Below are positions 10,301 to 57,300 of a stretch of 64,000 bases of DNA, one piece after another. This stretch comes from Chloranthus sessilifolius. Lineage: Eukaryota > Streptophyta > Magnoliopsida > Chloranthales > Chloranthaceae. Within the stretch, counting starts at the first letter, position 1; each line of letters begins with the position of its first letter. The notes beneath the pieces were generated by a model. It did not search any database, was not told the origin of the DNA, and worked only from the letters and a program-made list of their open reading frames with translations. The position numbers were made by a program, and so were the translations under genes. Location: NCBI GenBank assembly GCA_021018995.1, contig CM037589.1, forward strand, positions 12,849,001-12,913,000, in the 5' to 3' direction.

Positions 10301-13300
10301 CCTAAATAGAGGACTACCAGCCAATTTCTTATAAATTTGTTCTATTATCAGATCTCACTGGTTTATCGTTGGTTTTTCTATGTATAGGAGTCCTAGATAT
10401 GTAGTGGGAAGTACCGAAGTAGGGTTGTCAATGGGCCGGACTGGCCCGCAACCCGGCCCGGAAACGTGTTTTTGGCCTTATAAAACCGGCTTGGCCTAGG
10501 GTGGGCCAGGTTTGGATTAAAACTTAAAAAGGCTGGCTTTGGTGTATGTATATTTATTTAAATTTTTATATCTATTTAAATGTCTAATTAATGTGTGCTA
10601 TATCATACCTCCTACATGTATAAGTTATTTTTTTGACTTCGTCGAGTTTCATATAGTTTTACCGTATGAATAAGAGGCAAATGATTAACAAAGAGTTGCT
10701 ATTAGATGATGGTTAGTACTATTGAAATATGAGAGTGTTCCCATTGTGCATGCACTCTTAAATCTATTTTTAATATAGATTATTTTAAATAATATTTTTG
10801 AAAAATTATACATAAATAAAAAATTGGCTTGCAACCTGGCCCTAGCCCGGCTCGGCCTGACCTAGGGTTGGGCATATGGCTGCCTGGATGGCTAGGGCCG
10901 GGCTGAGATTGACCTCGACTTGGCCATAACCTGACCCATTGACAGCCCTAGCGGGAAGACCATCCAACGACAGCCCATTAAATCTTCCAATTTTGCAACC
11001 TGACACTCCATTTTTACCCTGTAAATAATTGATATTTTTCATAACATCCTACGATTTTCTTAACATTCCAAATTTCCCTTCCAAAGCATTACAAAAGACA
11101 GTTGTATTATTGGCATATTATAGATGTTCCATTTCATAGGTCAAAATATCGTTCGATACCGATACGTATCGTCCGATACGTATCGGTTTTGGACGTGGGC
11201 GATACGATAAAGTGGATTTTTATCATATCCCCCTTAAAATGTAGAAGTTATCGTCCGATACGGGCAATTTATCGCCCGTAACGGATTCCCAGTAAAAAAA
11301 AAGGAAATTATCGTCCGATATGGATGATAATTTGACTGTATCGTCCCTATCGAACGATTCTTTGAAATTATTGGACGATAATTGCAAATTATTGTCTGAT
11401 AATTTGAATTTTTTTGCAGTGGGTCCCCCTAGCTTCTTTGACGCGTGAAAGAGGGTTTTAAACCCCTCTTTCTTCATTTTCAACTCCAGCAGCCACTTTT
11501 TTAGTTTCTCTTCTTGCTACTCTTGCACGGGAGAACTTTTTTTACATTTTTGGTGCCGAATTGATGCCAAATCAAGTGCCGAATCGCCGAAATCGCCGAA
11601 AAGAGTGTATAAGGTACGTGTTCTACCATTTTAAGCAAGGATCAAAATATCGGTAAACCGATACATATCGTCCTGACATCCAGGACGATACGTCACGAAT
11701 ATCGGCCGATACATTCAATGTATTGGCGATACATTGAATGTATCGGTTTGATACATTAAATTTTTTTTTTTCGATTGTCTACACAATCGATGGCGACTGT
11801 GTAGACAATCGGGAAAAAAAAAAAATTTCCGATTGTCTACACAGTCGATGGCGATTGTCTACACAGTCGCCATCGATTGTGTAGACAATCAGGATTTTTT
11901 TTTTTTTTTTTCGATTGTCTACACAATCGAAAAAAAAAATATATATATACATATTATCGGACGATATATTGAAATTATCGTCCGATAATTTCAATGTATC
12001 GTCTGTATCGTCCGATACGGGCGATACATTGCTCGTATCGGACGATAAGTACATTGTTTTTAAGGGGGTACGATACAATGCCTTTGTATCGTACCGCCCA
12101 AGTCCAAAACCGATACGTATCGGTATCGGACGATTTTTTGACCCATGAATTTTAAGTCATTTTCTCCTCATGTTCTTACATTTTAGGGTTTAAAATTTTA
12201 AGATCTACACTTAAATATGGTAGATATACACTTGAATTTCAAGATCTATCCATAAAATTTGAAGATCTACCCTCTAAAGTTAAGATCCACCATTAAAATG
12301 TCAAGATCTACCCTTAAATTTCAATATCAACTCTTATATTATTTATAAAAATTAAAATAAGAAATATTAAGAAAATAATTAAAATAAAGAACTTATCATA
12401 GTTTTGTCACTTTTCTCTTAAGTTTTTTTAATCAAATGGTACAAATATATTTAATTATTGATGCGTTTTTAAGGATGTTCTATATTTAATTATGGGGTAT
12501 ATGTTACATACCCCATAATACATGTGACACATGTAATTGATGTGTCACATTTGTATTTGATGTCTTACGTGTGTCATGGGGTATGTGACCCATGCCAAAA
12601 TTGATGTGTCACATACCCATGACACATGTGACACATGTGTAATTGATGTGTCACATGTGTCATACATATAATTGATGTGTCACATGTGACGCATATCACA
12701 TGACACATGTGACACGTGTAATTGATGTGTCACATGTGTCATACATGTAATTGATATGTCACATGTGACACATACAACACATGTGGGCATGTGGCATGGG
12801 GTATGTGACACATGTACGCATGGGGTATGTGACACATGTATGCAGGTGTCACATCAATTACACATGTGTCGCGACACATGTAATTGATGTGTCACATGTG
12901 TCACACATGAGACACATACCCCATGACACATCAATTACACGTGTCACATGTGTCGCATGTGGTATGGGGTATGTGACACATATGAGCTTGTGACACATCA
13001 ATTACACATGTGTCGCGACACATGTAATTGATGTGTCACATGTGTCACACATGTGACACATACCCCATGACACATCAATTACACATGTGTCACATGTGTC
13101 TCATGTGGCATGGGGCATGTGACATATCAATTACACATGTGTCGCGACACATGTAATTGATGTGTCACATGTGTCACGACACATGTGTTGCGACACATTA
13201 ATTACACGTGTCACATGTGCCGCATGTGTCATGGGGTATTGACACATAAATTACACATGTCACACATACCCCATGATGCATGTGACACATCAATTTCATA

Positions 13301-16300
13301 TAAATATAATTTTCAAATATTTTTAAAATTAGAATAATATGATTTTCTAATATTTTCAAAATTAGAATAATATCAACTAAATACTATTTTCAAATGTAAT
13401 ATGAAATAAATATGGTAAAATATAATATAATATTTTTAAAATAAGAATAATATCAAATAAATTTTCAAATGTAATCTAAATTTTTTAAAAATTAGAATAA
13501 TATCAAATAAATTTGTTAAAATATAATCTAATATTTAAAAAATAAGAATAATATCAAATAAATTTGGTAAAATGTAATCTAAATTTTTTTTAAAAATAGA
13601 ATAATATAAAATAAATGTGATAAAATATAATCTAATATTTTAAAAATAACAATAATATGAAATAAAATTTCAAATGTAATATAAATTTTTTAAAAATTAG
13701 AATAATATCAAATAAATTTTATTTTCAAGTATAATATAAATGTTTTAATTTAATCCAATCGTTTGCTCATTCATGCAGGTGAAATAAATAAATATGGTAC
13801 GATCATCAGATCTAACCTGGCAATACGGCACAACAATAGATGGTGATAGACTTCGAATAGAATGTAAGCTTTGTGAGAAAAAAATTGCTAGGAGGAGGTA
13901 TCATACGGTTGAAGGAGCATTTAGCTCACGTTAAGGGAGAGACGAAAGGGTGTCCCAATGTACCCAGAGAGGTGAAAGAAGATGTTAGAGCCAGTTTACA
14001 GGCGGCTAAGGGAAAGAAAAGAGCACAAGCCGACTGAGATAGAGAAATGTATGAGAGAATAAGGAGGGGAGATCCAGAGTTTCCTGCACCTGGATGTGAG
14101 GAGGATGAGGATGAGGATGAACAGACAACGAGAGTCATGAGGGAGAGTGCTAGAGAAGCACGACAACGACGAGATCAGGAAGAAGCTGATTATCGATTTC
14201 AGTCCAGGTTGAGGGGCCCATCCATCCCTACTAGTGGTGGTGGATCTAGTCATAGGCCACATGCTGTTGATGATGATAAGGATATTCAGGAAACTGTCGG
14301 ATTGCGTAGGTCAGCATCAGTGAGGGAGACCAGGCCGTCTATTATAGGCCATACTACAGGTCCCATGGATCCGTTCATGTATCGGATAGAAAGCTCCAAA
14401 CAAACTAAATTGAGTGCAATGTCACTGAAAAAATTGGGGAAGAAGTTTGGAAAATCCATTGCAAAGTTTCTGATATACAATCACATTCCGAGTCAGGTTG
14501 TGGAGTCGCCGTACTTCAAAAAAATGATTAATACAAGTGCAGAAGCTGGTCCAGGAGTTAAAAAGCCTACTGCATACGAGTTATATGAGCCTTTACTAGA
14601 TGATGAGTACAAGGAGATAGGAGCTTATGTGGACAACTTCCATGAAGTATGGGATGAGAGAGGTTGCACAATTATGTGCAATGGATGGACTGGTCTCATA
14701 AGGAAGAGTTTGATCAACTTTTTAGTCTACAGTGATGCTGAGACAATATTTCTAAAATCAGTTGATGCTTCTAAATACGGGAAGATGGCTGATTATCTCT
14801 TTTAACTAATGGATAAGGTAGTTGAAGAGATTAGAGAGAAGCGGGTTGTGTAGGTGGTAACAGATAATGTCGCTAATTACAAAGCCGCAGGAAGACAGTT
14901 AATGTTGAAGAGACGTCACTTGTACTGGACTCCGTGTGCCGCTCATTGCGTGAACCTCATTCTTGAGGATTTGGGTAAGAGAAGTAAGGCACATACAACT
15001 ATTCAGAAGGGAAAAACATTTACTTCCTACTTATACAACAGTGACAAGTTGGTGAATTTGATGAGAGACTTCATCAAGAACGAGTTGCTCCGGCCTGCGA
15101 TTATACGATTTGCTATATAATTTCTAGCCCTACAAAGCTTGGCTAGATATAAGCGTAAGCTGAAAAATATGGTTAACTCCGAAGAATGGAGAAAATATGA
15201 GTTAGAACTCCCACGAGTAAAGAGACCTGCTTGCAATGAAGTTGTTGACCTGATCTACAATCCTCAGTTTTGGATAGATATTGACCACCTGATCGCCGTC
15301 ACTACCCCGTTGGTGTAAGTGTTGAGGTTAGTAGATGGTGATGAGAAACCAACGATGGGGTATGTTTACGAGTCAGTGGATAAAGCAAAATTAGCTATTA
15401 AAATAAAATGCGATACAAAATATAAACGATATTGGGCGATCATCGACGAGAGGTGGGATGCACAATTCCACCAGTACTTGCATGTCGCAGGTATAATATG
15501 CTAAACTGCTTATGTAGTGATTTTTATTTATTTATTATTTTTAATATTATTCATTGTTTCCATATATTGATGAGATTACTCATATTTGATGTATAACAAA
15601 CTACTTGAATCCGACATTTCAGTATAAGCGATGCTTCGAGTTGAGTGAGGCCAATGAAGTGTACAACGGTTTGTTAAATGTGATCCAATGAATGCTCCCT
15701 GAGTTGGCGGACCAAGGTGAAGCCATAAAAGATGTGAGTAATCATACCTTAACTGATAAGTCAAGTGTCATATGATCTGTTTATTGATATGTGGGTTATT
15801 GTATTCCATCTTTGTAGATTGACATATTCTGCAAGAGATATGGGTCCTTTGGGTCCCTGTTGGCGCAATCTTAAATCAAGTACGATAAACCTGCTAATTG
15901 GTGGATGCACTATGGAGATGATGACCCGATACTGAGGTGGGTTACAATGCAGGTCTTATCACAAACATGTTCATCGTCCAACTGTGAGCGGAATTAGAGC
16001 ACCTTCTCTCTCATTCACACGAAGGCAAGGAATATGCTAACTATGGAACGATTAGAAAAGTTAGTCTATTGCCACTACAACATGTGATTAAGGGTCAGGA
16101 ATATGCAAATGACCAACCGTGGTAAGCAATTATATGAAGTCTTAGTTCGTATAATTTTTATTTGATGTAATTGATGAGGCATATATTAATTCATCTATCA
16201 TATTCTACCTTACAGATAGTGAATATTTTGATCCCATCCAGTTGGATTATATATTCACAGAGGATGACCCTTTGAATCAGTGTATCGAAGAGAGAGAAGA

Positions 16301-19300
16301 GCCAGTGTTGGATATTAAGAGCACTGCATGACTGGACAATGCTGAAAGACTAGCGGAGGAGCAGGCTTCCCAACCACCGAGGTGGAAAAGATGATTGAAT
16401 CACCATTCAGTGGTTGGATCTAATGACGAGATACAATCCAGTAGTGATAGTGATGATGGGGGTGATTGTGGAGGCGATGAAACCCACGTTGGCAATAGTG
16501 GTGTAGGGGATGATGTTGATCCCTCTTATTCTTATGGAGGTATTGCCGCATGGGATGATGATCCGATAACAATGTGTGACACTCCTACATTTAGAGGTGG
16601 AGGGGCTGAAGGAAGATGAGCGTCAAAATCTTACCAAACACCACCACCACCACAGGTCCACAAGATGATGTGGGTTATATAACTTCTAGCTTCGGGGGAT
16701 TTAGTTTGCAAAACACCGAAGATTAAGCAACCAGTAACCCATACTACCGGCTTCAACTAACTTATCTCAGGCCATATGACTTCGTTGGTCAAATTTTTAG
16801 AGGATCGACCTTTACCTATTACATTGAGTCATATTCGCCACTAATGCCTCAGTTTCAAGGGGGCACATATGATCATGGGTATCAATATCTCCAACATTAT
16901 AGGGAAAGCTCGCGCACCGATGATGATTATCACGAGAGCCAAGAACCACCACTAAATTCAATGTGACTTTAAAGTTAATTTTTCATGTACAATATACCTT
17001 CTAATTTTGATCATGAGTCATGTACAATGTAATTTAGGTTCTGCGTTGATAAAATTATGAAATATGCATCAAATAAGCCTTAAATAAATTTAAAAAGAGT
17101 TGAAATAAATAGAAAATCATTAAATTTATTTTTCCTAATTTTTTAGTATTTTTCAAGTTTTTTTTGAAAAAAAAATAAAAATTCAATGTATCAAACCGAT
17201 ACATTCAATGTATCGCCGATACATTCAATGTATCGCCGATACATTCAATGTATCGGACGATACCCGGTACGTATCGTCCTGGAGGTTAGGACGATACGTA
17301 TCGTTTTTCCAATTCTTTGATCCTTGGTTCCATTGATTAACTCCAATTTGGTTGCTTTTCTCATTAATATGTTGAATGCCTCTCCCACTAAATAAAAAAG
17401 GAGTGGAGGCAATCGACCATCCTGGCAGATACCTCTCGAGCTTCTTAAAAAACCTTTTGTTGCACTATTCACGATAGCCGAGAACCGAGGTGAGGATCTA
17501 CAATCCCTCACCCACTTCCTCCATTTTTAACTAAACCCCAATCTTTGAAACAGGTAATCTACAGGTTTCCAATTGACCCGATTATAGGCTTTTCCATGTC
17601 TAATTTACATATCATTCTTGGACTCCCTTCTTATATCTACTATCAATGCATTCGTGGGCCACCATTATGTTATCAATTATTTGCCTTCCATTGAGAAAGC
17701 ACGTTAGTTTGGTGCATTAATCTTCCCAATGACAGGTCTTGCACCTGGGCCAAAGTCTTATAAACATGACCCAACATATTGATTGGCCTAAAATCTTCCA
17801 GTCTCTCAACACTGTTCTTATTTGGGATTAGATATAATTTGCTCCTGTACATGTCCCCAACTTATCTTGCACATAAAAATCCAAAAAACCTTCCGATAGT
17901 TCCACTTTCAGTAGCTCCCTAAAGTGCTTAAGGAACTTCAAAGTAAACCTATCAGGGCTGGGAGCACGATCTCTACTCGCCTAAAAGATTGCCTATGCCA
18001 TCTCATTCTCCTAGAAAGCCATCTCCAATTTCTCAAGATCCTCCCTGTCAGTCAGATTGAATTCCATTCCATCAATTGTTGGATGATCCAACCCCTTATT
18101 AGAAAATAGCTCCTTGTAATAGTCCACTCGAGCAGTTTCTATTCCTTCAATATTCTCAAAATTCTCTTCTTTTACTATTAAATGTTGGATGGCATTGACT
18201 CGCTTTCTTGTAGTGGCCATTGCATAAAAGAATTTTGTGTTGTTATCCCCCTCTTTTCGCCATCTCACCTTCGAGAGTTGTCCTCTTTCACTCCTCTTGC
18301 AAGCCTCTTCTCGTCTCATCCTCCTCTTTGTAATTCTGAGTTCGTCCTTGTTTAATCAATTATTTGAATTTCTTTTAGAATTTCTTCTATCAACAATTAC
18401 ACGTTACCAAACACTCTTTGTTCCATCTCCTCAAGTCTTTCCTCAACCTTCCCAATTTTGAAGCCAGCTAATCTTTCTTTCGCACTTTCATTTGGGTTCC
18501 AATTTTGGCATATTTATTCACTCAAATGATTGATTTATGTATATGGTATCAGTAGCATACTTAAGAAATACTCAATTGTTTATTGTGAATTATGTTGTGG
18601 CTGCAACATATATCGTTTCGTAGGTGGTGTAGAACGAAGGTACAACTTATTTGAGAAATGTATTTTGAGATTCAGAGAGGAACATGATAACTTCTAAGCA
18701 AAAGTAATTAAGGAAAAACATCAGTGCAGGGATTGGGGGTGGTAATGTATATATCCTTTGGTGAGGAATTTGAATTTGGCATTTGACAGAATATTGGTGA
18801 TTCATTTAATTTTTTTTTGAAACGATAACAAAGCATATATATTAATATTAAAAAGAAGTACATACCTTAGTGGGTAGTAAGACACTTCCCAAAACAGGAA
18901 AACCCCCAGAAGGCTCACCCGGGAACCTGGCAGACCCGAGAAGAAGACAATTCCCCAGCAGCGACCGCCTCAACGCGCACCCACATGGCTCTTAGTCAGC
19001 ACAGTAATCCCATGCCAGTATAAACCGCTGCAACCCTTCCTGAAAGTCGGTCGTCTGAATCGCACTCCAGTTAACAGCCAAGTCCCTGATTTGACGAATG
19101 ACCATCCTAGATGGCATCGCCCTTCTTCGAAACACTCTACTATTCCTCTCGATCCAAATAGCCCAGAACACCGCATAGACAGTCACCTAGCACAACTCCT
19201 TTCGCTGGTCATCTACCTCCGCTGCCGTCCACATTTCCATCAATTGGGCAGGCCCTTCCAGCATAACCCACCAAACTTTGAAGAAGCCAAAAATCTTGCA

Positions 19301-22300
19301 CCAAATGTTATATGCAAAGGAACAATGCAGAAGGATATGCGCCACCGATTCTCTTTGTCTCATGCAAAGCAAACATTTGTTTCCGAAGGGGACGTTCCTC
19401 CTCACTAACTGATCCATGGTTAGGAGTCTACCATGCACCACTGTCCACGCAAAAAATCTGATCTTGGGTGGAATTTTGACTCTCCTGAATCCAGCCCACC
19501 ATCTACCACCATTGCTGCCCCTATCCCCTTTTAGCATTTGTCTGTAGATCGACTTGATAAGAAGATCCCCTTGGCCGAATACCGCCATAACCTTTGGTCC
19601 CTATTGCTATCGTTGGGGGTGAGCCCCCTAACAAGACTCATAAGGTTCCTGAATTCTTCTACTTCCCACTGTCTAAGACCACGTCTAGTTTGGACTGTCC
19701 AAACCCAAGCTCCTTACACCCACTGCACAATGTGGCTTACGACTTCATTCTTGGAATCGGAGAGCATATAGATCGTAGGGAACCTTATTTGAAGCGATTG
19801 ATCCCCCACCCATATATCCTTCCAAAACCTAATCCGCTGCCTGTCGCCCCAACTATACCTAGTACTATTTTGGATTACACTCACCCAGCTCTTCACCTCT
19901 TTCCACCATGCCGATTGAAGATTAGATCTGAAATTATAGTGCCAAGGGTCTCCTGACGCCCCATACTTATTAGAAACCAGCTGCCACCATAGCTTATCCC
20001 TTTCGCTAACTTCGTCGATCCTCCAAACCATGGATCAAAATATCGTCCGATACCGATACGTATCGGACGATACGTATCGGTATTGGACTCGAACGATACA
20101 TTGAATGTATCGTTCGATACATTCAAATGTATTGAATGTATCGAACGATACATTCAATGTATCGTCCGATACAGACCGGTACCGATACGTATCGTCCGAT
20201 ACGTATCGTTTTGGAGCTCGGACGATACGTATCGGTAACCCGATATTTTAACCCATGCTCCAAACCATTTAGCTAAGACGATGTTATTCACGATCTGAAG
20301 CCTTCGAATGTCCAAACCGCCTTTCTCCTTAATGTCACAGCAGTCCAACCACCTAACAAGATGAAACTTCTTACTACCCCCTTGCTCCATAGAAAATCCC
20401 GAATCATCTTCTCTTACTTCTTGATGATACTCGCCGGCACCCTGACTATAGACATCATAAAAACTGGCATGGAAGCGAGCGTAGATTTAATGAGCGTTAG
20501 CCTCCCTCCATTGCTAAGAAATTTGCTTTTCCATGCAGCCAGCCTATTCTGAAATCTCTGAATAAGCCCATCCCAACATCTCGCACTACACATCCCTGCC
20601 CCCAAAGTGATCTTGAGATAGGTGATCGACAACGAATCCATCCTACATCCCACCACCGCTGCCACTCTCTCGGTGTCCGCATTAGGGATGTTAATACCGG
20701 TCAAACTAGACTTGTGCAAATTAATCTTCTGCTTAGACACAGCTTCAAAGAGCACCATAATATCTGTAAGCGCCTTAACTTCCGTGTCCCCCCTGCTTCC
20801 ATTACAAAATACCATCGTATCATTAGCATATTGTAAGTGAGAAATTGACATCCCATTGTCCGCCATCGTAAAACCCGAAATGAGGTTACGATCTTCCGCC
20901 CTCGCCAACAACCTATGTAGGGCCTCCTCGACGCAATTAAATAACATAGGGGATAGTGGGCATCCTTGTCGCAGTCCTCGCATACTTCTAAAGTACCTAT
21001 AAGGCGCCCCATTAATCAACACTGAAAATCGAACTGACGCGTAACATCCCTTCATCCACTTCCCATTCTAAGTAGCATGTAATCGAGAAACTCCCAATGC
21101 ACCCTGTCATACGCCTTCTCCATGTCAATCTTAAAAATCCATCCTTTATCCTTCTGCTTTTTAACCGAGTTGATTGTTTCCACTGCCGTTACCGTGATGT
21201 CAAGGAGCTGCCTGCCCTGGATAAAGGCTCCTTGCACAATAGAAATCAGCCTACTTATTACTTCTTTGAGGTGTGTAGCCAACATTTTAGCAACGATCTT
21301 ATATGTGCACCTCTTTAGGCTGATCGGTCTAAAGTCCACAATGGCGGTGGCTCCAGTGCACTTAGGAATGAGAGCAATGAACGAGGAGTTGAAACTCTTA
21401 ACTATCTTACCATGAGAGTGAAATTTTGCCACAAAAGCCATGAAGTCCGTCTGAATGATATTCCAAGAAAATCTAAAGAATTCAATGGTAAACCCATCCA
21501 GCCTGGGCGATTTACTACTGCCCAACTTCTCCAAGGCATCCTTCACTTCATCTTCCGAGAACATCCTCTCAAGGGACGCAGCCGACTCCGCATCGATGGA
21601 ATTGAAAGCAATACTCTATAGAGACGGTCTAAAGACCTCCTCCGAAGCGTAGAGGCCCTTATAAAACTCTACTATCTTTGCTTGCACCGTGTTCTCATTA
21701 ATGTACGTAACTTGTTGCCATCGCCCTCTCTTAGCCAATGGACCTTCACTTTTTATCTCCAAATCAGCTTTCACATTGTAAGCTTTTGCATTTTGCCCTG
21801 GAAAAACTTTGTTCCACGTCTTTATTTGTGCTTTCAGATGTTTGAGCTTTCTGGACAATATATACGAGGGCGTCACCATAACCGAACATTGAATCCACCA
21901 AGCTTCCAATCTGCGTTGGAAATCCTCATTCCGTAGCCACGCGTTCAGGAACCGAAACAGCCCTGGGACGTTTCCTGGAGGGTGCCCATGGGAAGTACGC
22001 ATAAGCGGTCTGTGATCCGATATGGTTGAGTGTCGGATATGAACCGAAACACTTGAGATCGAGAAAATCAACGTGGCATAGGAACCTATCGAGCCTACAC
22101 AAAATAGGGACATCCTAGCCATTCGACCATGTAAACCGCCCCCGTCATTCCCAGTTCAACCAACCCTGCTTGCGAAATGCAGTCCATGAACAAATCTTTC
22201 GCCATGACATCGATCTAGCCCGTGTTTTTTTTTGCCGCATTGCACAGGGCATTGAAATCCCCCCCCCCCCCCCCCCACACACACACACATACCGGGTAGT

Positions 22301-25300
22301 CCCATCTATTGATGATAGCGCTTAACTCGAAAAAAACCCGTGCCTGAAGTTGTTGACCGTGGGCCCATACACCGTGACAGCCACCCACTGTCAAGCAATC
22401 CTCTTATCCTGAAGTAAAGTCGCTATCACGTAGCGTCCCACCTCCGAGTCCACCAAATTGTAGACATTTGTATCCCAAGCTAACAGCACACCACCCCTGT
22501 TATCTTCCGCGTTTATATCTAGCCACTCCCACGAATTATCGCCTATGACCGAGCGAACCAGAGCTTTGTTAACCGACTCCCACCTAGTCTCTTGCAGGCC
22601 AATCGCCTCAAGTTTCTGTCCTCTGATAAAGATTTAACCAACACCCTTTTATCCCTATCGCCTAGACCTCTAACATTCCAACCGAGAAACAACATAAAAT
22701 CGAAAGAGATAGCAGCCCACCGATCCACCTCTCTAACACTTCTCCTGTGGAGTCCCATAAGGGGAGCTGCGAGATCTTCTGCGGTCCTTCCTATACCTGG
22801 AATAATAAAGACCCCATTTAGGTTTAACCTTCCCCTTGCTGCCACTGATCTTCTCTCCGTTAGACCGCGCCTTTCCATTCTCCACAATATCTCGATACAC
22901 TTTGAGCAGGGCGTGCCGCGGGCCATTGAAAGACACCCCAAAAGTTTCACCTAGATTAGCCACCCTTTCCCCTTCATTTCCCTCTGATTCATCCTTGGAA
23001 TCGACTGCCGGCTTGCCATTTGATGAAAACTATTGAATAGAATGCGAGCCGGGTTCGGTAAGGTCATTCGGCCCCATTTCGGAGGTGGCCCATGTGCTGG
23101 GTGATGGTGCATACATTCGGGTCCACACAAGGTTCCGCTACATCTGCACACACAACCCATAGATACATTAGAAAAACAGTATTGCAACCCAAGCCCAACA
23201 GGCCCATGCTGCAGACCCGACTTGACATTAGTGGACTGCCCGTTAAAATTTTGTGCGAAGATATGGGGTTCATTATGAGTCCGTGACCCATTATGCGATT
23301 CCAAAAGTCCTATCTTGGAGTCTAGACCCGACCCTTCCACCCGAACATCCTCGTTGGCGACCGATTCGCACACCCTAGAACAGGAGCCCGTGTCAGCGGT
23401 GTACCCACGCCCTCCTGATAAACTGCCACGTGTGTGGATGGTCTTAAGGGGTGTCGACTTCGGATTCATCCGTTGACTAGTAGACCCAGACGCCATTCCA
23501 TTAAGGGTATTAGACGTGGCTGGCAAGTCATCATGTCGCTTGTCACTGGGACCCACGTTAAGACCACGTGACTCCCCCACCAGCCCACCCTCAGCAATAC
23601 GACCTCCCCCTTCCCTCATAAAGACACCCTCCGTTCCATTAATATGGCACATGCCAGCTATGGAAAAATCAACGCCATTAACATCCGCCACTCCACATGT
23701 TGGATTCTCAATCCCTTCCATAAATGAACGATCCTCTTAAGTGGAAGAGGGTTGAACTTGTCCAATCCTTCCATCCCTTTGCGCAGATCTCTCAAATGTC
23801 AGCGCAACTACCCTCCTCTGAGCCGCTTGAAGCGGCATATCTTCCGGCGAACAGCTATAAAGCAGAGGCTGTCCTTCTCCAGCGACACAAGCGTCATCGA
23901 AGGTCTGTTTCCATCGGTCAAGGACCAGCCGATCCTTCTTGTCCATCTTGTAATGCCACATCGATTCAAAGAGGCCGGCGACGTTCCTGGCAGAGCCGTC
24001 TAATATCGGAGCCAAAGACTAATCCGAATGGAGCCCGATCCGCGCACGATTGAGTACTAGGAGCTCCAGCGGCTGCTGTCGTTCCCCTCCCCTGTTAATC
24101 CCGAGGTTCTCGCTAAGATCTTCATCCCTTCCGATCGCCGTGTCTTGCACATCACCGGCCCCTACTCCGGATCTTATTTTGCAATTCTCAGTCGTCAGTT
24201 TCTGTTTACCCCACTCCAATTCGAACCGGCACCGATAGCGGGACCCATTAACGAGGACATCTCCCCTCCGAGGTATCCAGCTAGCGTCGTGGGAACGCAC
24301 CGAAATCCTTGCGAACCTGATATCCTCCCTAGCCACCGTGGAGTGATCGGTTCCGAGGCAAGTCCTGCGCCTTCTTCTGATACCGCTGAGTACCTCATTA
24401 GTCCAAGCGTGTGGCGGTAGTCCGTGAATGCGCAACCAGAGGTTGCTATCCCCATTTTGCAGCGACGTCCTGTACAACTCTTCCTGCCATCGAACGAAAC
24501 GCGCCTCTGAGCCCCCCAACGGACTGTCCCCAGCTTGTGTAAACGCTCCGTCGCTGGAATCACGTTGTCAGAGAAAACCAGGAGGAAACTATCCGAAAAG
24601 AGTTTTGAAACTGTGAATCTCGTTTTGTAATGGTTGCCTAGCAGCCATATTAAAGACTCTTTAATGTGAATGCAACCACTTTTGTAACTCTCTGTTGATA
24701 CATCGAAAGTTAGCAGTACCATCCTCCTGTGACAAAGTAAATTATTATCTTCATAGATGGTCCCATTAACTATTAAGGGAAAAGATTCATGCGGCTGGGT
24801 GTGTGCCCTTGAGGTCTCCACCCAGGAAGTAGGCAGCATCCCCGCCCTTAAAATCTTTCCCTTCCCCGTGAGCTCACCAGCACCCTTCCGATCTCCGGCA
24901 AAGCCTTGTCGTGTCTCCCCCCTTGTACCGTCAGCCTTCGCATGTTTGCCCATTTGAATTGTCTCCCCGCAATGTTCCACCCGTTATGGAGATCTTTTCT
25001 CTGATGCGGTGAGATGATCGTCTGCTTGTCTCCTCGCATCCTCCCTCTGGTGGCGGTAGACGTTCAAACAATTCTTGACAATAACACCCTCACTCCAATG
25101 GGCGTCACGCCCTCTAGCATGGCACCGAATCCTTCGCCTAAAATTTAAGTTCCCGCAACCATTACACATCCAATCCCCATTCTGAACCACCGCCACCGCT
25201 CCACCCATGGCCCGACAGGCTTCATCAGCTATTCATTTTAACTTCCTTGCCTTTTAGAAATCTGTTTCAATATATAATTGAATTTTGTTTAATTTTAAGC

Positions 25301-28300
25301 AGTAACTGGTTTCTATTTTGGAAGAAACTCGTTTCAATCTATATAGAAACTCTTCTCTATTAAAAAAAAAACTTCTTGGTGATTCATTTATGGTATTAGG
25401 TATAGGGTCGGAAGGGAGATAGAGTTAGGTTTTGGTTGGTCCTCTGGGCAGGTATGGTTTCATTGTGTAGGTTTTTACTATGTTCTTTAGAGCTGCTTAT
25501 TGTAAAGACGCTTTGATTTGGACTTTGGACCATTTTGAGGTCTTTTGGGTTAGGTTGTATGGTGTGGGACGCCCGAGGAGAGGAGAGGAGATGGGGTCTT
25601 TACCTGAGCTATTAGGGTCATTGGATTCAGTTTTCAGAGTCGAGGCATTCATTTTGGATGACAACACTCATAAGATTAAGATGCATTATACTTTGAGGAA
25701 TAAAGGGGAGACACTTGGTCACTTTTATGCATTGTGAGGTAATTAGAGGATCATAGTTATTTGCTTTTTCAAGACTTACAATTTGAAGAATAAAGAGGAG
25801 ATGATGTCACCTTTTTATTCATTGTGAGATACTTTAAAGATCATAGTTATGTCCTTATTCAAGATTTTTTCAGTATCCTAAAATATATTTATGGAGCTTA
25901 TTGGAGGTTAGACTTCTGATTCTTTAGTTTGAGGGGCCGTATTTTGTGTAGTTGTTTACCTCTTGCTTTGGAGACGACATGATCGGAATAAAATAATTGG
26001 ATATAAGGAACAAGTTCTTAACTTTTGAAGATTCCAAGGTCAGAATAGAGATGATGCTTAGCATTCAATAGGTGGTTTCTAGAAAAAAATGCTTCTCTGT
26101 ATTTGGTAAGGATTTGAATATTGTAAAGAGGAGAGTGAATGAATAGCTTGAGGTGGAGAGGGCCTTAAGATAGGAGGCCATCATGTTCAATTATGTTGGC
26201 AAGTTCCTTCCCTGCAGGAATAGGAGGCATTGCTAGATACTGTAGAGGGGATTGTGTGTTGACATTCATTGATCCTATTAGAATAGAGGTTTTAACAAAA
26301 CTGAAGCTTGAGCTCTTCTTGAAGGTATTAAGAACTCCAAATCAGATATAATCGTGGAGGGTAGTTCACGCTAGATGGGTTTCAACTCTAAGGCTTTCTA
26401 GGACATTTGCTGACATCATGGGTGGAACTCTAGATAGATGGGGTAGATAGAATATCTATTTTTCCCGTGTTTTACAGGAGGCGAGTGATGCGGACTCCCT
26501 GCTAAAGAGGGTATTAGTGGGGCTTCCTTAGGTCTTTGCAAAGTATAATGAGTTGTTGACGCAGGACAAGACCCTAAACTATGTGCGTGCGATGAATTAA
26601 TTACTTGCCGAAATTAATTTAAATTAAATTGAACAATGAATTTGAAAATAAAGCGAATACCTTAGGGCTTTTTTGTTTCCCATGTGAGAGATCGCGTTCG
26701 AGTTCAGGAAAGGTCCAGTCCATGCGCTAGATCTGTTAGGTTTGCGGTGTAGATCGGTTCTAGAGGTAGAACTCTAGATTTCCAGATTAGGGCGCTCACA
26801 ATTCAATGATGGGGTTACTGGTTTTCTCCGGGTATTTGATGCGGAAGGGTTTAATAGCTCTGATGGGATCTACGGTTGTTGAATCGGATCGGTTCAATAA
26901 TTTAGGAAAAAAAAACTAGGGTTTATGATTTCGGGTTTATGAAAATATTTAGAAGCAGAGAAAGAAAATAAAGTAAGAGATAAATAGAAGATAGATGGGG
27001 GCTTCACACCCTTGACTTCACACCAAACCCTTCTCGAGAAGCGAAGAATCACTCTTCGGGGAGGCTCATCTCAAGCACACAAGCAAAAACTCTATTCATT
27101 AATCAAAAACTAATTAATTACATTGTTTTTCTTAATGACCTTATATAGGAGGTCTTAAAATAAAAGAAAAACCTAAAACAATTAAATAATAAAGACAACT
27201 TTAACCCTGAAATTTAAATTCGAATTTTGAGAGAATTTAATTTGCGCGATTTCGATCGATTGATTTTTATATATATATATTCACTCCAGAATGAAGTCTC
27301 TTTCTCACCGCTCTCGCCGCCGTCGATCGATCGAAATATGAGGTCGATTTATCGAAGCAAAATTTCAATCGATCGAAGCAGAATTTCGATCGATCGAAAG
27401 TGCAGTATTCCTCCAGTACGAAATTCTCCTCCTCTAGACCTGGTTCTGATTTCCATTTCGCTTCTTTCGACGTTGGTTCACGCGAAACAGTCCGTATCCG
27501 ACGTCTACAATGTCGGGGTCCCCGTCAGTTGTGGATTCTTATAAAAAAAGAAGAGCGAAAAAGAAAGTCAACCCTTGATGTGTATAGTTCACTTATGTGG
27601 TGATTAATTCCGCACAAGGTATCTTGGTCTAGCTTCCCACTTACAGCTTCTGACCTGATACAGAGAGGAATGTATCTTGCATAACCATGTTGTTTGGGGT
27701 CCACTTTCTTTTTTAATTCATTTATTTGTTCTCAATTATTGCTGATTTTCAAAAGGTGGACATTTAATTAACTGAAAGATCAGATGATGCTGCTTTAATC
27801 AAACTTATTTTCTAGGAAGATGGATAGTGTATCTTTTAGATCTCCAGATGAAATTCAAAATGTTGAATTTCTGGATTCTAATCTTGCTGATACAAGTGCT
27901 CAATATTTGGTGGAGCTCCAAGTCTCCAAGATCTCTCTGGGATAATGAGCACCTCTGATCAAGGATAAAAATTTTGGGTTTCATTTTGGTTTCAGAGGGG
28001 ACTGAAACCGAAAATTTGGACCGAAATTTCGGCCGAAAATTTCAACCCCATACAAAAATGACTGAAATTTCGGTCCTATATTATCGTTTCGGTGGGGACC
28101 GAAACTGATAATTTCAGTCATTTCGGCCGAAATTTTGATCCTTGCCTCTGATTGCATATAAAATTTGCAAAATCCTTTATGAGGTTCACCTCCATATTAA
28201 TTACACAGACCAATCATCTCTTTAAGCTAATATGTGACCCCCGTAATTACCTCAGTGATGGTATACATAAATGTTCTACTCACGAATTTGGTATTGGAGA

Positions 28301-37300: not shown

Positions 37301-40300
37301 TTCTATTGTACAAAGCATTCCCATTCCCAGTTTTCTGAACCCCTAGGCTTTGTGAGATCAAATTCAGTGTTAAGATGAACCTTGTTGTATCAGAATGAAC
37401 CCGTGTCAATCGATGATGATTGTTTGATGGTATGATTTTCATCTAACCCTTGTTTTTTTTTTCTTTTTCACCAAACTCTTGATTCGAGAAGTTTGTGCTG
37501 ATATTTTATCATAATGATATAAAGGGTTTAGAGTTTGGGCCGATTTGCTGTATTTATCGTTTGAATGTGCTCTTAGCAATTTGGCTGCCAATCGAGAGAG
37601 ATCTGTTGAATTTTTTGTGTCACAAGTACAGTGTTACCTAAGTCACTTTAGACGATATGGCTGTGAATATGAGTTCTTGTGATCAGATGTTTGTGTTCAG
37701 TAGCAGGAATCTTCTATTTAGTGTGCCGCTCCGGCTTCGAAACCTCGCTCCCTCTCCCGCTTCCAACCATAAAATAGTGTAATTTTAAGCTTTTGATGAC
37801 GCTCCCGCTCCCAACCAACTACACTCTTCCTGCCGCTTCCGGTAACTAAGGTTTGTGTGTGGTTTGAGAGTGCAGAAATCAATGGTATCACTGCTGGACT
37901 CAATGTTTGAAGCATGGGTCAAAATATCGTCCGATACCGATACGTATCGGACGATACGTATCGGTTTGGACCTCACCGATACGGTACATTCAAGGTACCA
38001 TATCGGTGCCTCCCATACAAAAACCTAATATTTCGGACGATACATTGGAATGTATCATCCGAAACCGATACGTATCGTGTTATTTGGAGCATCGTGTTAT
38101 TTGAAGCATGGTTTGAAGGCTGTGTAGCCTATAGCTATTTGGGCATCGTGTTATTTGGGTGGTGTACTAGGTTCAAGAATGTTCATCTTGATGGATGAGG
38201 TCATGCTGGTAGTGACGTAGAGGGATCCCATGGGCTGCAAATCACAACTGTAAAGTTGGATGCCATGGGACAAACTATTTTGAGTGGTCAAGGTCTGCAA
38301 CCATGTTTTTATTGTCAAGGAGGAAGTTAGGGTATGTAAATGGGGGTATACCCAAACTAGATATTACAGATCCTAGGCATATAGCCTGGGAGTGTGGCAG
38401 TCTTACCGTTATGACATGACTCCATTATATGCAGCCCGCCATTACTCGGTCATTTATGAATGCTACCAGTGCAAAGGAGTTATGGAAAGCAGTGCGTGAT
38501 GCCTTCTCACAATGACAAAATTTAGCCAAGATGTTTCAAGTGATTGAGAAAGTCAGCAACACTCATCATGGAGAGAGGTTATTGGTGAATAGTATTACAT
38601 TGATAAGGAGCATGTGTGATGAACTGGTACAGTACCAAGTGAATGATGTTTGCAGTGGGTGTGCTAGCATATTATGTTGCAATAACTCTGCGAGCAAAGT
38701 TAATCATAGTTTTGAAATAAAGAAAATATTTGACTTGTTGAGGGGTGTTAACCCGAATAGGAGAGTGTTTGTGCCAGTATACTGGGTCCCCTTGGCACCG
38801 TCTTCACTCTACTGCAGCATGAGGAGAGTAGATGCCAGTTGATGCATGTGTCCATTGATGCTCCTGAGCATTTAACACTTCCATCCTTCTCTGATTTTCG
38901 TCACGGAGGAGGTTGATCTCGCGGTAGAGGTGGAAGTGGTCATGGAGGTCCATCACGAGAAGACAAAGTGATGTAAATGCACCCACTGCAGTAGAAAGGG
39001 TCATCTAAGGGTGGCTTGTTGGGATTTGGTTGGCAGACCAACGTCTCAGGACAACCAAGACAACCGTGCATTTGTTACCGAGGGTGATGCTACAGCTCCT
39101 ACTTCTACTGTGGCCAGCACCCCCTACGGCTCAGACCTCATCTTCAGTGACACTGTCACAGAGACCTCATCTTATTCAGAGATTTTCTGATGCCTAGGCA
39201 TGGATCAAAATATCGTCCGATACGATAAAATGGGGGTTTTCTCGGGCCCCTTAAAAAATAGTCAAATTATCGTTCGTATCATCCAATGTATCATCCGTAT
39301 TGGAAAAATACCGGAACGCATCGTTTGGAATCGATACGTATCGTCCGGTACTTATCGGTTTTGGAGCTGAACGATACGATATGGAAATCTGAGATTTTGA
39401 CCCATGTGCCCAGGCCTCATCTTCTCACGTTACCGAGTTAGTTATCGTTGGGCAGCCCATGCACCATCTACGTCTCCGTCTCTCTGGACCATTGATTCAG
39501 GTGCCACCCATCACATGTTTGGTATGTCCACTTTAGTTGATTCCAAGGATCAAAATTTCGGCCGAAATGACCGAAATTTCGGTCCTATTTTGTATGGGAT
39601 TGAAATTATCGGCCGAAATTTCGGTCCAAATTTTCGGTTTCGGTCATGCCCGAAACCGAAATTTTGGCCAATATTTTGATCCTTGGTTGATTCTATTATA
39701 CCCATGTCGACTCCATGTAGGATTCAGGTTGCTAAGTGTCCCTTTTCCCAGTAATGGGGCAATGAAATGTTCACATTAGTCTGTTTCTTGATTCTACTCT
39801 TCACATTCCAAAGATTCTATTAAGTCTTCTCTCTGTCAGTAAAATCACAAAAATCATGAACTGCAATGTTATTTTTTCCCCTTCTCACTGTCTTTTTCAA
39901 GACCTGACTATGGGGAGGACATTTGGTTGTTGTCGTTGAGAGAGGGGGCTCTAGATATTTGAAGGTCAGAGGACTCTGAGTTCTGTAGCTGCAACAACCA
40001 CTTGGAGATGACTCGTTTATGACATCTCCGTCTGAGACATCTACCACTTCCTCGTTTGCATATTTGTTTCCAAAACTGTTTAATTCCTTTGATTACATTG
40101 ATTTTCAATGTTACATCGGGCAGTGATTTTCAATGTGACATTGGTCAGTTGTGTAGACATTGCAGAATTGTTTATCTTATTAGTAATATAAACTGTGATG
40201 TTCCTTTCAGAATTGTTCACTCAGGTGTTTGGGGGCCTTCTTTGATTGTTGCATTGCTTTGTTTTGTTTCTTTCATTGTCGAGTGTACCCGTTCTACTAC

Positions 40301-41746: not shown

Positions 41747-41791
<45 letters not shown>

Positions 41792-42405: not shown

Positions 42406-42411
42406 AATAAA
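42406..42411 (+). terminator. Candidate poly(A) signal of LSD1
   Basis: AATAAA stands 199 bp after the LSD1 stop codon in an A/T-rich setting, the first canonical signal downstream. It sets a likely transcript end near 42430. Confidence 0.4.
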
Positions 42412-44744: not shown

Positions 44745-44798
<54 letters not shown>

Positions 44799-48322: not shown

Positions 48323-48329
48323 TATAGAT

Positions 48330-51115: not shown

Positions 51116-51285
51116 GTGGAAACCCAGGTTGTGGATATAGAATCTTCCACTGCTAATATCAGTACCCTATACTTTACACTTGGCTTGTTTGACTCAATAA
51201 ATGAATTGGTGACCCGCACAGCCACTGTAACACCAACTTTTTCTAAGCTCATAGCACGTTCATTATCTCAGACTTTCTCCGGCCT

Positions 51286-51292
51286 TTAAAAC
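51286..51292 (+). promoter_or_regulatory. TATA-like box of the CASP-like gene
   Basis: TTTAAAA stands 90 bp before the start codon and is followed by a long CT-rich leader (51300-51365), a common arrangement of plant 5' UTRs. No other TATA-like word is nearer. Confidence 0.4.
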
Positions 51293-51375
51293 CATTACTA
51301 CTTCCTCTCTCATACTCATCTCTCTCTCTCTCTCTTTCTCTAAGATCTTTCTCTTTCTCTCTGTAAGATCTATCA

Positions 51376-54300
51376 ATGGCTGTTGAAGGTGGTGAGAAAA
51401 CTGTTGAAGGGTGGGAAAATCAAGAGGCTTGTATGATTCTAATTGGAAAAAGTAAGGCACGAGAGTGGGTGGTTGTGTCACTAAGGTTGCTAGCACTATG
51501 TGCGACGGTTTCAGCCACAGTTGTTATGGCATCTAACAAAGAAACCAAGACCAGAGCTGTTGCCACTATTGGCAGTACACCCATCTATGCACGTCTCACT
51601 TCCAAGTTTCAATATACCCCAGCTTTCGTGTAAGTTTTTCGATTTCTTCCTTTAATTTACAGTGATGCTATGGCCACACCAATTTAATTTTGCTCCCCAC
51701 ATACACATCAAAGTGACCAAACTAAAGAAAATTTTCTAAATGTTTTTCTCAAGTTTTGTGAGTAACAGCACTCTTTATTTAATTTAAGTTGTTTTTTTTT
51801 TTTTCCATTTACCCTTGCTTTGTGTTTCCTTTACATATTACCCTTAGTGGCAAGATTGGTTACAAAAATAATCTTTCACTGCTCTGAATCAGACGATGTT
51901 GATCGTTTCTCACCTCAATCTTCTACCCAATGAATCTTGGCATCAGAAGCTTCCCATCAGGCGCTCAAATTTTGATTCCACATGATGATCCTGGGTGTAC
52001 GTCAAATGTGGTTCTTGTATCATTTTTCGAGATATTTGTCATGTGAAATCAAAATCTAACCGTGTGATTGTAGGTCCACAATCTCAAAATCAATTAGAAC
52101 AAAGATCAGGGCAAAAAACAATCTCCATCAACTAATTCAAAGCAGTCAAAGATAATTTTGTCGAATAATCCATTACTTGTAGGGGGTAATATATAAAGGA
52201 AACATAAAAACAATGGCCGCAATGCAAATAGGTAAAACACGGGGGTGGAGTGCAAGTAAGATATATCTCAGGGGATAAATGCAAAAACCCCTTAATATAT
52301 ATATATTTTTTTATTTATTATTATTTTTTTTTTATGGTTTTAGAAGTTAGCCACAGGATTTATTTTTATTTTTTAGACATCATAGTAACCATTACAAATA
52401 GGTTCTAAGATGGTTTCTGAGGCATGCCTTCTATCTGCATACCTATCATTGATCTGTAACCGTCCAAGCATTTGGGCAATAACCTGAAAATCAAATCTAT
52501 TGAAGTTCTTGCCCATTTGATGAAGATGGATGCACCAGTCAGTAAAGTTACTAAAAATAGACTATAAAAGATAAAACTAATTAATCAGTCTGATATTTGA
52601 GCTACAACCTCTCTGAAAGGTGCCCAAAAGATTGACGGTGCAGATTCATCATCATCATGTGTGCTTAGACTTAGAGGACTCTAGAGTCCGGAATGGTCCT
52701 GGAATTGACTTACATTATAGGGCGGCGGAGTTTGATAACTAGGGGCTTTTCAACTCCACATATCTCAAATTCTACACAATGCACAACAGTGACTCAAGGC
52801 CGATCAGTGCACGGGCTGTGCACACAATACTAGGCTCTTTGAAATCTAGGTTGTGAATACTTGTGGAAGTCAGGGATTCCCTCTCTTATCATTGTCTGAT
52901 CAGATATTGGACGGTTAAGGAGGTACATCATTAGTTCATTGAATATTACAGGTTCGTGTCTCCAATATATGCACGAAGGGAGGCAGATAAGTAGGCTCAC
53001 TCACGCCATGGTATTATAACTGTGTATCAGATACTCCAAGTCCAAGCACCAAGGACGGTGCTCAGGTCATCTATACCACACACGGTTCAATGATGTAGAG
53101 TCACCTATAAATAGCATCAAACAGCTGATCCGGTCTCTTGATAAGGGTGTTACAATTAGTCATCTCAATGGGCTGGGCTTGATCCTGGACTGGCCCGGTC
53201 CACCATGGGCTAGGCATGTCCTAAGGTAGGTAGCCCCGATATATAATTGGGTTGGTCTAGCCTGATAACTAAGCCGAGTCTCGTATGAGCTAGTTCCAAA
53301 AGCCCTATTAAAAATCCGCCCATTTAGTCCCTGCCGGACCCAATAAATTCAGACCCTTCATATAGATATTATCAGATCGGCTTGCAGCTAGCCCTGCCTG
53401 CCATGGGCCAAGTACGGGCTAGTTCCAAAGATCTTGATTATAATCAACCAGTTTAAGTCCTAGCTCGAACCCAGCCTGGCCTGACCCATTGAGACCCCTA
53501 GTTACAATTGTTGGAATAATGTGATCTTGGCTCATACTGCTGACCCAAACAGTGACCTTGACCTTTCTCATGAACGATTTGGATAGCAGTATATATATGC
53601 ACACATGCTGAGTTGGTACAGATTACCCAAAGATTCGAGCTTGTGCTGATATTTGGTTAGGAATGCCAAAAGAACTACACAAAATTTGTGTAGTTCACAC
53701 GATGTGGACTCTGGCCGATAAGATTTGTACTTGTAAATGGTTCATGGTACTTTTGAAGAGAAAAGTAGTAAAAAATTAGAAAAAATGGACTGACACACTT
53801 TCCAATGTCCCAAAAAAGAATTAGATCAATGTTTAGGGGAAAAGGCAATTTGAAATTCAAAAAAGATTTTCAAAAAATTATTCGGTCTGTGAGAAACATT
53901 TATAATCAAAATTATAAAAATACCTTTATAATAAATGTCATATGTCACAAACAATATCATTTACATAGGTGGGAAGAAGGGTGTGATTTGATAATTTGAG
54001 CTATATATGCTTCCGAAACTTTGACCGAATGAAATGTTTTTCTTTTAAAAACTTTCCAAAGTAGTTTAATATGATAATTTTTTTTGAAAATAATCCTTGT
54101 TTTCTAAAAGGCATGATTCCTTCAAGAAACTCAGACATTTTTATTGTACTTCTAACTTTTAATCTTGGGATTATGCAGGTTCTTTGTGGTAGCCAATTCT
54201 ATAGCCAGTTTCCACAACTTAATATTGTTGTTGGTTAGTTTGTTTGGTAAGAGGTTTGATTTCAAGTGCCTCGGTCTTTTGATCGCCCTTGCCGACATGG

Positions 54301-57300
54301 TAATCACCAATATCTTTTTTTTCTTCTTATTTTGCCGCCAAAAGGTGGTAAAATAACCCAACTCAAAGTCGAAAACCAGAAGAAACTAGGAAAGAAAACG
54401 GATGAAACTTGTCTTTTTTTACAATCCCTATAGATATTGGCAACTTTATATAGGGAAGCTGCATATATATGTAGGAAAATTATAGGGGACCTTAAATGAA
54501 TGAACGGGAAACAAAATGCTTATGTGGCACGATATAAGTCGTTGCCCTGACGTCCATTGCTGGGCCCTACTATGCTTGCATAGTGCCACATCAATAGTCC
54601 TTTGAATGGTCTGCAATTTCCCATCCACGATATAACATTTTCCTATGAGACCTATTCAAATAAGTTTTGGCGGCATTTTCCTATGAGACCTATCCAAATA
54701 AGTTTTGGCGGTTTATTTTATAATGCTTGTAGCATATGAGTCATGTGATAGAAATTATTTTTTATGTAATCTTAGGCTGCGTTTGAATTAGCTCTTGTAA
54801 GAGTAGACACAACTCTCTGCCTGCTCTCCGTTAGAGCAGATAAAATCTACTTTGGAGAGAGCAAGTAGATAGCAGTTTTATCACTTAAAACAGCTCCTTG
54901 GGAGGAGGAGCTGTGTTACCAAATGCAAGGATCAAAATTTTGGCCGAAATGACCGAAATTTCGGCCAAAATTATCTGTTTCGATCCCTACCGAAATGATA
55001 ATATGGGACCGATATTTCGGTCATTTTTGTATGGGGTTGAAATTTTTTGCTGAAATTCAAATTTTCTGCCAAAATTTTGGTTTCGGTCCCCTCCAAAATC
55101 AAAATGAAACCCAAAATTTTGATCCTTGACCAAATGTGAAAACAATTCTCCGTTGAAGCCAAAGTGTGAAAGATCTGTTGTTTGATCTGAAAGAGTTAAC
55201 TGAAGCACACCCTTATTGTGACACCAAAATTAGTGGCACATGAACAAAATTAAGTGGTGCGTGAATGACAAAAGTTGGTTTGCATTTAGGAAAAAATCAT
55301 TATATTTAAGCAAAAGAAAAAAAAAATACATATTAAGAAAAGCATATACTTATGCGCACTCAAAAGATGCTATGGACACACTTTTGCTAAATAATACACT
55401 TTTTCTACGTACTCTAATGTTTTGGATCTTTGCTAAGTAATACATGTTTTCATTACTTGGTGTGTGCATAGCAAGAGTTGATATGCGTCTAGAAATAGTG
55501 TGCTGGAAAAAAAGAGTGGTGTGCACGTAGGAGCCCTCTAGAAGAATTATAATTTACAAAATGAGTTGGTATTAAGTACCCACCCATGCACTAGCAGTGG
55601 TGCATAGGTCAACCTTCTTTAACCGAAAGGAAAATTGCAAACGACAAATAGGCTTTTGTGCAGGCAAAGTGCAGGCGACTGATATGGCGCGGAGTGACTG
55701 ACTGTGCCCACCTGCATTACTTTGGCTCCACTGCACTTGCAGTCAATTACATTGGGAGACATTAATTGCATGTACTTTGCCTACACAAAACCTGTATGCC
55801 AAAAAAACACCGTCCAGATCTCATATTAAGCTTTCTAGCTATTTTTTTGGGGAGTGTTAGGTTGGCTCCCAATCACATGAGAAGAATAATAATTTTTATG
55901 CAATCAAAGAATGAATCTAATCTACATATTAGCTTAGTAAACCACGTGGCACTACATGGAATTAAAAAATGGTGCCACATGGACAGAATCCATGATCACC
56001 CCAATTTTAGTGTGGGCTGGCAGCTCTATACTAGGCTCAATCTCCTTAAAACCATGCATATAAGTGAAAGTACACATTAGAAGTATAAAAATTAGTGAAA
56101 ATCACTACAATAAATAAGACTATTAACAGAATTATTAACAAAAAAAGTTATTAAGACTATCAGCGACAGCTTTTTCGTTAGTAGCGGCAGATTTTGACTG
56201 CTGCTAATAGTCTTATTTTTTGTAGTGAATACACACTTGATTACACATTTAACTGTTTTAAGGCCAAAGAGATTGACCTGTTCCCACTTTGAGAGTGATC
56301 ACATAGCTAGGTTAGAGTGGCTAGACACATGCCTACATAAATTCTCTTCGGCTGTGCTTGGATTAACTCTTATAAGAGTAAAAGCAACTCTTTACCTGCT
56401 CTTTGTCGGAGTAGATCAAATCTACTCTTAGATAGAATAGGTATAAAGCAATTTTATTATTTAAAACAGCTCTCCGTCAGAATAAATGAGGCAAGGAACT
56501 GTATTATCAAATATAAAAATAGTTTTCTCCCTGATCGGATAAAAGAGATGCTCTTTGCCCCAAAAGAGCTAACCCAAAGCAAAATGACTTGGTATGTACT
56601 AACCAATCCGTCTATTCTCTTATGAATGGGCCAAGGTCCTAGGTAAATAGTCAAATCCATACTTTCAATGACTTTTATGATTATAAATAGCTGTCCACTT
56701 GTCAAGGCTATACTTTGACTAAGGTGATTGATGGTTAACACCCGTTAACACTTTGAAAGTGAAGGGTCAGTTACTCAATACCAACCCAATAATAATACTC
56801 AAAATTCCCTCATCCATTCATAGGAAGGGAGAATGACCATAGATTTAAAGACTCATAAATAGCAACTTATTGGTTGGGTCTCAGGCCAATAAGTATCGGA
56901 TATTATATCAGATACGTATCAATCAAATCGGTCGATTAAGAAGCTTCTTTTTATTTGTAAAATAATATCATATAAAAATAATAATAGAAAACTTGTACGA
57001 AGAGCATTTTCGGTATTACTAAATATATATAAATTATTATAGAAAACTTTCCCAAGGAGCATTTTCATAATTATGTCCGATTCATATAGGATACATATCG
57101 GCAGGCGATATGACTCGATATTGACCGGCCTATATTTGCCAAGTTTAACGTGATAATTGAGCTTATATTGAATCGGAGGTGTAGATAGTATTAGAGGGCC
57201 TAACCTGATACATATCAGCCGATATTTATTGGATATGACCGATATTTAAAACCATGAGTATGACTAATATGAGCTTTTGAGTAGGTAATGGTTGCTCTAG

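Follow-up and report, generated by a model that had tools for sequence, protein, structure and literature searches.

The Ac transposase of maize binds the hexamer AAACGG, which is repeated behind the element ends, and maize Ds1 shares little with Ac beyond the terminal repeat, according to the available sections of one account (PMC3260210). The BED domain of the Hermes transposase likewise binds subterminal repeats, two of which form a quasi-palindrome that is bound cooperatively by two BED domains, as described in the excerpted text of another (PMC10368747). It is difficult to see how such a transposon could change its specificity, as the protein and the sites at its two ends have to alter together while the element's own copies are kept. 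Here, a 64-kb window of the Chloranthus sessilifolius genome (the whole stretch of DNA that was analyzed; the genome comprises 2.17 Gb in 32 contigs) was examined, in which eight hAT elements share their ends and carry one of two palindromic fillings, termed groups A and B. Two families of hAT miniature inverted-repeat transposable elements (MITEs) in a large plant-like genome are by themselves ordinary; in this case homologous enzymes, thousands of left ends per form and a one-base half-site difference are found side by side. The pair probably arose by divergent co-evolution of the subterminal word and the BED domain between sister hAT lineages, and not by a module swap. In the accessible portions of the open-licence literature, no account was found of two same-ended MITE classes with shifted words tied to sister transposases, and a search of print for six exact end and word strings returned one string, once, in an enset paper.

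The sequence-only reading of the window had proposed eight elements with hAT-like ends, five of them (11135, 11636, 20029, 37913 and 39199; group A) filled with the ATCG-type word CGATACGTATCG and three (27960, 39544 and 54926; group B) with the TTTCGG-type word CCGAAATTTCGG, and both proposals held. CAWGGRTCAAAAT stands at the start of all eight, with at most one mismatch. Taken by itself, the window supports this end weakly, as it contains 24 matches at two mismatches, shuffled sequences average 13.4 and at least 24 were reached in 2 of 100 shuffles; genome-wide, the exact 13-nt end occurs in 22,525 + 22,701 copies, against 106 + 86 for the reversed-pattern control. Both words are far above chance in the window and are confined to the named elements: CGATACGTATCG (at most one mismatch) is found at 15 places where 0.02 are expected, all inside the five A elements once 11135 is extended to 17326, and CCGAAATTTCGG at 7 places where 0.09 are expected, all inside the three B elements. 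Six of the 8-bp target-site duplications (TSDs) are perfect or one base off and two carry an extra base, as had been described (Table 1).

The relationship between the two groups was examined in 43 short copies from the genome (<1 kb, duplications with at most two mismatches), comprising 24 A and 19 B elements. Duplicate loci (L002, L004 and L007; L-numbers denote fetched genomic loci), pairs longer than 1 kb and the second row for L021 (846) were omitted; the window copy 37913, with a right end too degenerate for inclusion, lies outside the sample, and 11636 was added by hand. The copies have the properties of MITEs, being short and of high copy number with terminal repeats and duplications, although coding capacity was not searched copy by copy. 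The 24 A elements contain CCGATA 129 times and CCGAAA three times, and the 19 B elements contain CCGAAA 124 times and CCGATA 20 times. Only 3 of the 43 are mixed, with at least two of both words.

End consensus sequences were derived from the 33 of these 43 elements that could be oriented (10 could not). The left ends of A and B agree at 20 of 24 positions, differing at positions 3, 14, 18 and 23, and the right ends agree at 17 of 21; because the elements were oriented by their left-end word, some of the left-end agreement at nt 14-22 was built in by the procedure, which does not apply to the right ends. The short terminal inverted repeat starts with CA, as in other hAT elements. The half-sites CCGATA (A) and CCGAAA (B) differ by a single base, the common A palindrome being CCGATA-CG-TATCGG (spacer 2) and the common B palindrome CCGAAA-TTTCGG (spacer 0). 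The outermost palindrome, a putative protein-binding site, lies at nt 13-24, where it overlaps the terminal repeat (TATCGTCCGATA in A and TTTCGGCCGAAA in B), and it aligns between the groups base for base with single-position differences. Chance convergence had been named as a possible source of the shared ends; the shared stretch is longer than the 13 nt first seen (approximately 24 nt on the left and 21 nt on the right), and this favors common descent over chance.

The A form of the 24-nt left end (CAWGGRTCAAAATWTCGKCCGATA) was found 3,129 + 3,220 = 6,349 times in the genome and the B form (ending in CCGAAA) 1,186 + 1,139 = 2,325 times, counts that take in longer copies besides the short ones; the reversed patterns gave no matches. 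A looser pattern with positions 14, 18, 22 and 23 free matched 4,902 + 4,867 places, so that the A and B forms together account for 8,674 of 9,769. Among the first 100 places listed for this pattern, 69 end in ATA and 28 in AAA, and position 18 is coupled to the triplet, with T in 65 of the 69 ATA ends and another base in 27 of the 28 AAA ends.

A partner transposase of group A, in decayed form, is present within the window itself. The end at 11135 pairs with a reverse end at 17326, ATCG palindromes are found at both extremities, and remnants of a BED zinc finger and of DUF659, their frames broken, lie between them. This full-length element with its transposase, and the nesting of 11636-12147 within it, are additions to the sequence-only reading. 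Pairing of 11135 with 12147 was rejected, as the flanks mismatch, and a duplication of the form TTCCATTT/TTCCATTG for 11135-17326 was rejected in favor of GTTCCATT, which is present at either flank and is followed by one additional T at the left one. By eye, TGTGACACATG-like words are dense at 12500-13300, between the left end and the BED finger of this element, and show internal inverted symmetry.

Searching the genome with the DUF659 piece from the window gave at least 149 places including itself (149 scored of 6,638 candidates), the others being 71-83% identical; genome counts for relatives are lower bounds throughout, with approximately 150 candidates scored per search and 100 places listed per pattern. 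Six of the eight fetched A-like DUF659 loci are complete A elements of 5.0-5.7 kb whose duplications have 0-1 mismatch, and paired ends were not found at the other two (L033 and L037). Together with the window copy and a further copy on contig C1 (Table 1), there are eight full-length A copies with 8-bp duplications. The left ends of full-length A elements (L011, L030-L036 and window 11135) read CAWGGGTC in 6 of 8, and the oriented short A elements have a CATGGATC-type left end in 15 of 18 and a GGGTC right end in 12 of 18. As the end forms of the short and full-length A elements differ, the short A copies may stem from one variant parent.

A partner for group B was sought by crossing CTYGG-type left ends (254 + 238 matches, 100 listed) with DUF659 places (150 scored). 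This identified a complete copy with a transposase of the same plan as that of A; a second copy was read from its left end through DUF659 (Table 1). Compared with the consensus ends of the short elements, the left end of the complete copy shares 23 of 24 nt with B and 20 with A, and its right end 21 and 18 of 24, respectively. The left end of the second copy scores 22 for B and 21 for A and is hardly separable on ends alone; its transposase is 70% identical to that of the first copy across DUF659. When the B transposase was used as the query (150 scored of 7,091 candidates), the matches fell roughly into three tiers by identity (83-93%, 65-79% and 57-62%), and known A copies are among those of the lowest tier. 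Counts of CCGNNN words in the terminal 350 nt gave ATA 71 times in the eight A elements, and AAA 11 times and AGA 6 times in the two B copies. DUF659 (PF04937) was found in both A and B. The Pfam BED domain (PF02892) was detected in the window A element (E 9.4e-5), fell below the cut-off in L037 and was absent in L036; among these A copies, Dimer_Tnp_hAT (PF05699) was found in L037 (E 1.4e-12) and was absent from the L036 piece. A sequence search of solved structures (PDB) found no transposase.

A 6,155-bp candidate B element (L010 3611-9765) was rejected, since both of its ends resemble right ends; it contains one frame of at least 90 amino acids, without a match to the A transposase pieces. 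The long B elements L010:485, L017:4363, L019:1605 and L021:813 also gave no match to those pieces. Two of these (L010:485-1857 and L021:813-1589) have a doubled left end, with the second start 41 nt (L010) or 33 nt (L021) further on, and the 8 nt before each start resemble a target duplication, being identical in L010 and 2 of 8 off in L021. On sequence alone, the doubling suggests a transposition that was aborted or involved a single end. Some of the best DUF659 matches, such as C14:91467393 and C10:65488500, appear in neither the A nor the B list, among the matches listed; they may represent additional sister lineages that use different words, or the missing outgroup.

The association between end type and transposase lineage was counted within the stretch covered by both the end list and the transposase list. 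Of 19 B-like DUF659 places (at least 65% identity), 7 have a CTYGG-type B left end upstream in the same orientation, at a distance of 3.3-6.9 kb, where the random mean is 0.019. No such end lies upstream of the 12 places at 57-61% identity or of the 29 places found with the A query, two sets that have one locus in common, and the combined A-like count is 0 of 40. It is unlikely that a single transposase mobilizes both kinds of element, with the word of little weight and the fillings being drift or filler, as in maize Ds1. That explanation draws on Ds1 itself, which is taken as mobile though 314 of 331 are without the Ac hexamer (in the available sections of PMC3260210), on the few mixed elements, and on a small test, described below, in which TTCGG-type B ends were not seen beside B-like transposases. 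Against it, the CTYGG-type B ends are linked to a transposase lineage of their own, A ends sit on 7 of 9 fetched A transposases besides the window (those that could be paired), elements of either class retain numerous copies of their word, and end positions 3, 14, 18 and 23 co-vary.

The transposases of the two groups might have proved unrelated, a possibility raised at the outset, but they are homologous and collinear from the N-terminus, with 43% identity over 82 amino acids of the BED region and 56% over 226 amino acids of DUF659. Among seven clean A copies, mean identity is 0.827 in the BED region and 0.804 in DUF659, the BED region being the higher in 15 of 21 pairs; the single B-B pair gives 0.741 and 0.705. 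Between A and B the order is reversed, with means of 0.447 (BED) and 0.577 (DUF659) and the BED region lower in 14 of 14 pairs. Fixed A/B differences occupy 25 of 52 conserved sites in the BED region and 26 of 131 in DUF659 (Fisher p 2e-4), or 21 of 48 and 26 of 128 with the seven clean A copies (p 0.004). The excess drop in BED identity was positive in 399 of 400 bootstraps, and the branch between A and B is longer in the BED tree (0.75) than in the DUF659 tree (0.39), each with support of 1.000. The 56% DUF659 identity and the long A|B branch would fit an old split, and it is conceivable, if quite improbable, that the lineages diverged in separate hosts and that one arrived by horizontal transfer, the word shift having taken place outside this genome; such a transfer would alter the history and not the mechanism. 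Highly improbable is the module swap of the sequence-only reading, in which one recombination event replaced the subterminal palindrome block and kept the cleavage ends: its premises of common cleavage ends, different subterminal words and related transposases stand, and the outer ends are nearly identical with largely exclusive fillings, but replacement as a whole is unsupported, given left and right ends that each have their own A-B likeness over some 24 and 21 nt, an outermost palindrome aligned column by column, half-sites one base apart, the scarcity of mixed copies and a B N-terminal region that is homologous to that of A and not foreign.

There are two element classes, homologous full-length transposons carry each end class, and the BED region has changed faster between the groups. 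Under divergent co-evolution, two sister hAT lineages from one ancestor would co-reside, each with a BED and DUF659 transposase and a MITE swarm. The terminal ~13 nt, the presumed site of cutting and strand transfer, would have stayed nearly constant, and the palindromic word would have moved in concert at most copies, to CCGATA in A and CCGAAA in B, the outermost palindrome included, with the BED region of the enzyme shifting together with it. By analogy with Hermes BED binding and the maize Ac repeats, the two words may be BED sites: BED would read CCGATA or CCGAAA, and the word would decide which enzyme moves which MITE. Within a transposase multimer, the BED domains would contact the repeated half-sites and so bring each element to its cognate enzyme, whereupon the shared catalytic core would act on the common tips. 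The word shift would separate two families of one descent. A shift across many sites need not have been one event if intermediates were tolerated, as the mixed elements and the B copies with leftover CCGATA suggest they apparently were; a one-step block replacement is unneeded and fits poorly. The short TTCGG-ended B MITEs would, on this account, belong to the B transposases found.

Several points weigh against the co-evolution reading. TTCGG-type ends, usual in short B elements, were found beside none of three B-like places in the 42 Mb of C1 that were compared with a list of ends almost all of this type, the same test giving 0 of 4 and 0 of 10 A-like places. Both B transposons that were read carry a CTCGG terminal word and some CCGAGA (6, with 11 CCGAAA); the parent of the short TTCGG-type B MITEs may consequently lie elsewhere, in another tier of B transposases or in another lineage. 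The p-values assume that sites are independent, and they are based on two B sequences, one from a complete element and one from a left part, and frame-shifted stretches in several DUF659 rows depress the A-A identity. No Pfam BED hit was obtained in the B N-terminus, and that region is called BED solely through its alignment to A. The faster change in this region could reflect relaxed constraint soon after the split and not a new specificity, and as the comparison comprises A and B copies without an outgroup, it gives no direction for the word change. Finally, 3 of the 43 short elements mix both words.

Judged from the sequences, the A/B pair appears to be a naturally preserved case of a transposase that altered its recognition word. 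A bolder version of this idea, which we put forward tentatively and would not yet call probable, is that a specificity switch took place within one genome, in which BED domains reading CCG plus ATA or AAA (TTT in maize Ac, on the same plan) came with the remodeling of many sites, the tips were kept and cross-mobilization ended. If this is true, the 25 fixed BED-region differences would contain a triplet recognition code. Since the protein difference is concentrated in the predicted DNA-binding region, the question can be addressed directly with a pair of small domains and a pair of words, and could yield a recognition code for BED fingers and a means of keeping transposon systems orthogonal.

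Table 1. Positions of the group A and B elements, their duplications and their transposase regions. Positions without a contig name are those of the window; TSD, target-site duplication.
Feature	Position	Strand	Size	Details
A-type full-length hAT, decayed	11135..17326	+	6,192 bp	Left end CATAGGTCAAAAT, right end CAAGGATCAAAGA
Left duplication copy of 11135-17326	11126..11133			GTTCCATT, then one extra T
Right duplication copy of 11135-17326	17327..17334			GTTCCATT
BED zinc-finger remnant	13788..13934	+		Pfam PF02892, E 9.4e-5; frame broken
Transposase remnant, first DUF659 part	14038..14802	+		Pfam PF04937, E 6.7e-20
Transposase remnant, second DUF659 part	14854..15117	+		Pfam PF04937, E 9e-15
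A-type short element nested inside 11135-17326	11636..12147	+		TSD ATTTTAAG, one extra A on right
A-type MITE	20029..20257	+		TSD CTCCAAAC, perfect
A-type MITE	37913..38110	+		TSD GTTTGAAG, perfect; right end degenerate
A-type MITE	39199..39406	+		TSD TGCCTAGG/TGCCCAGG, one base off
B-type MITE	27960..28144	+		TSD CCTCTGAT, perfect
B-type MITE	39544..39685	+		TSD GTTGATTC, perfect
B-type MITE	54926..55128	+		TSD ACCAAATG, perfect
Full-length A copy	C1:838165-843738		5,574 bp	Perfect duplication
Complete B copy	C1:20312817-20319905		7,089 bp	TSD CTATAGAG, perfect; DUF659; same plan as A transposase
Second B copy	C1:33376579 onward			Left end through DUF659 read

Elsewhere in the window, a Copia-like gag/pol remnant, recognized by eye at 38110-39800, contains an A MITE and, at a distance of 137 bp, a B MITE. 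The joined flanks of the 39544 insertion, sought in the genome at up to three mismatches, gave three matches and none with the reversed control. One of these is its own right flank; the two others have three mismatches and a single target copy and, judged by the joined-flank match itself, are possible related empty sites. Minus-strand open frames that resemble a reverse transcriptase, LINE-like (long interspersed nuclear element) by eye, occupy 20417-24983.

The elements have the 8-bp duplications, CA-starting terminal repeat, BED region (by Pfam in A and by alignment in B) and transposase core of the hAT superfamily. They resemble plant hAT MITEs such as the high-copy families of Brassica nigra in being short, non-coding, of high copy number and of hAT type. 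With Hermes they share a BED-containing transposase and short repeats close to the termini; the Hermes word is AAGT, and binding has been demonstrated for Hermes, as far as the excerpted text of PMC10368747 extends, whereas it is predicted for the A and B elements. As in Ac/Ds, to judge from the sections of the maize account available, there are 8-bp duplications, a short terminal repeat and many non-autonomous copies that share little but their ends. On the other strand the Ac hexamer AAACGG reads CCGTTT, and its likeness to the A and B words, as CCG followed by a triplet of A and T, is our own remark; in neither group does CCGTTT itself rank among the eight most frequent CCGNNN words of the terminal 350 nt. 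The A and B elements differ from Ac/Ds in having CCGATA and CCGAAA as their words, in the palindromic arrangement of these words and in having two related transposase lineages.

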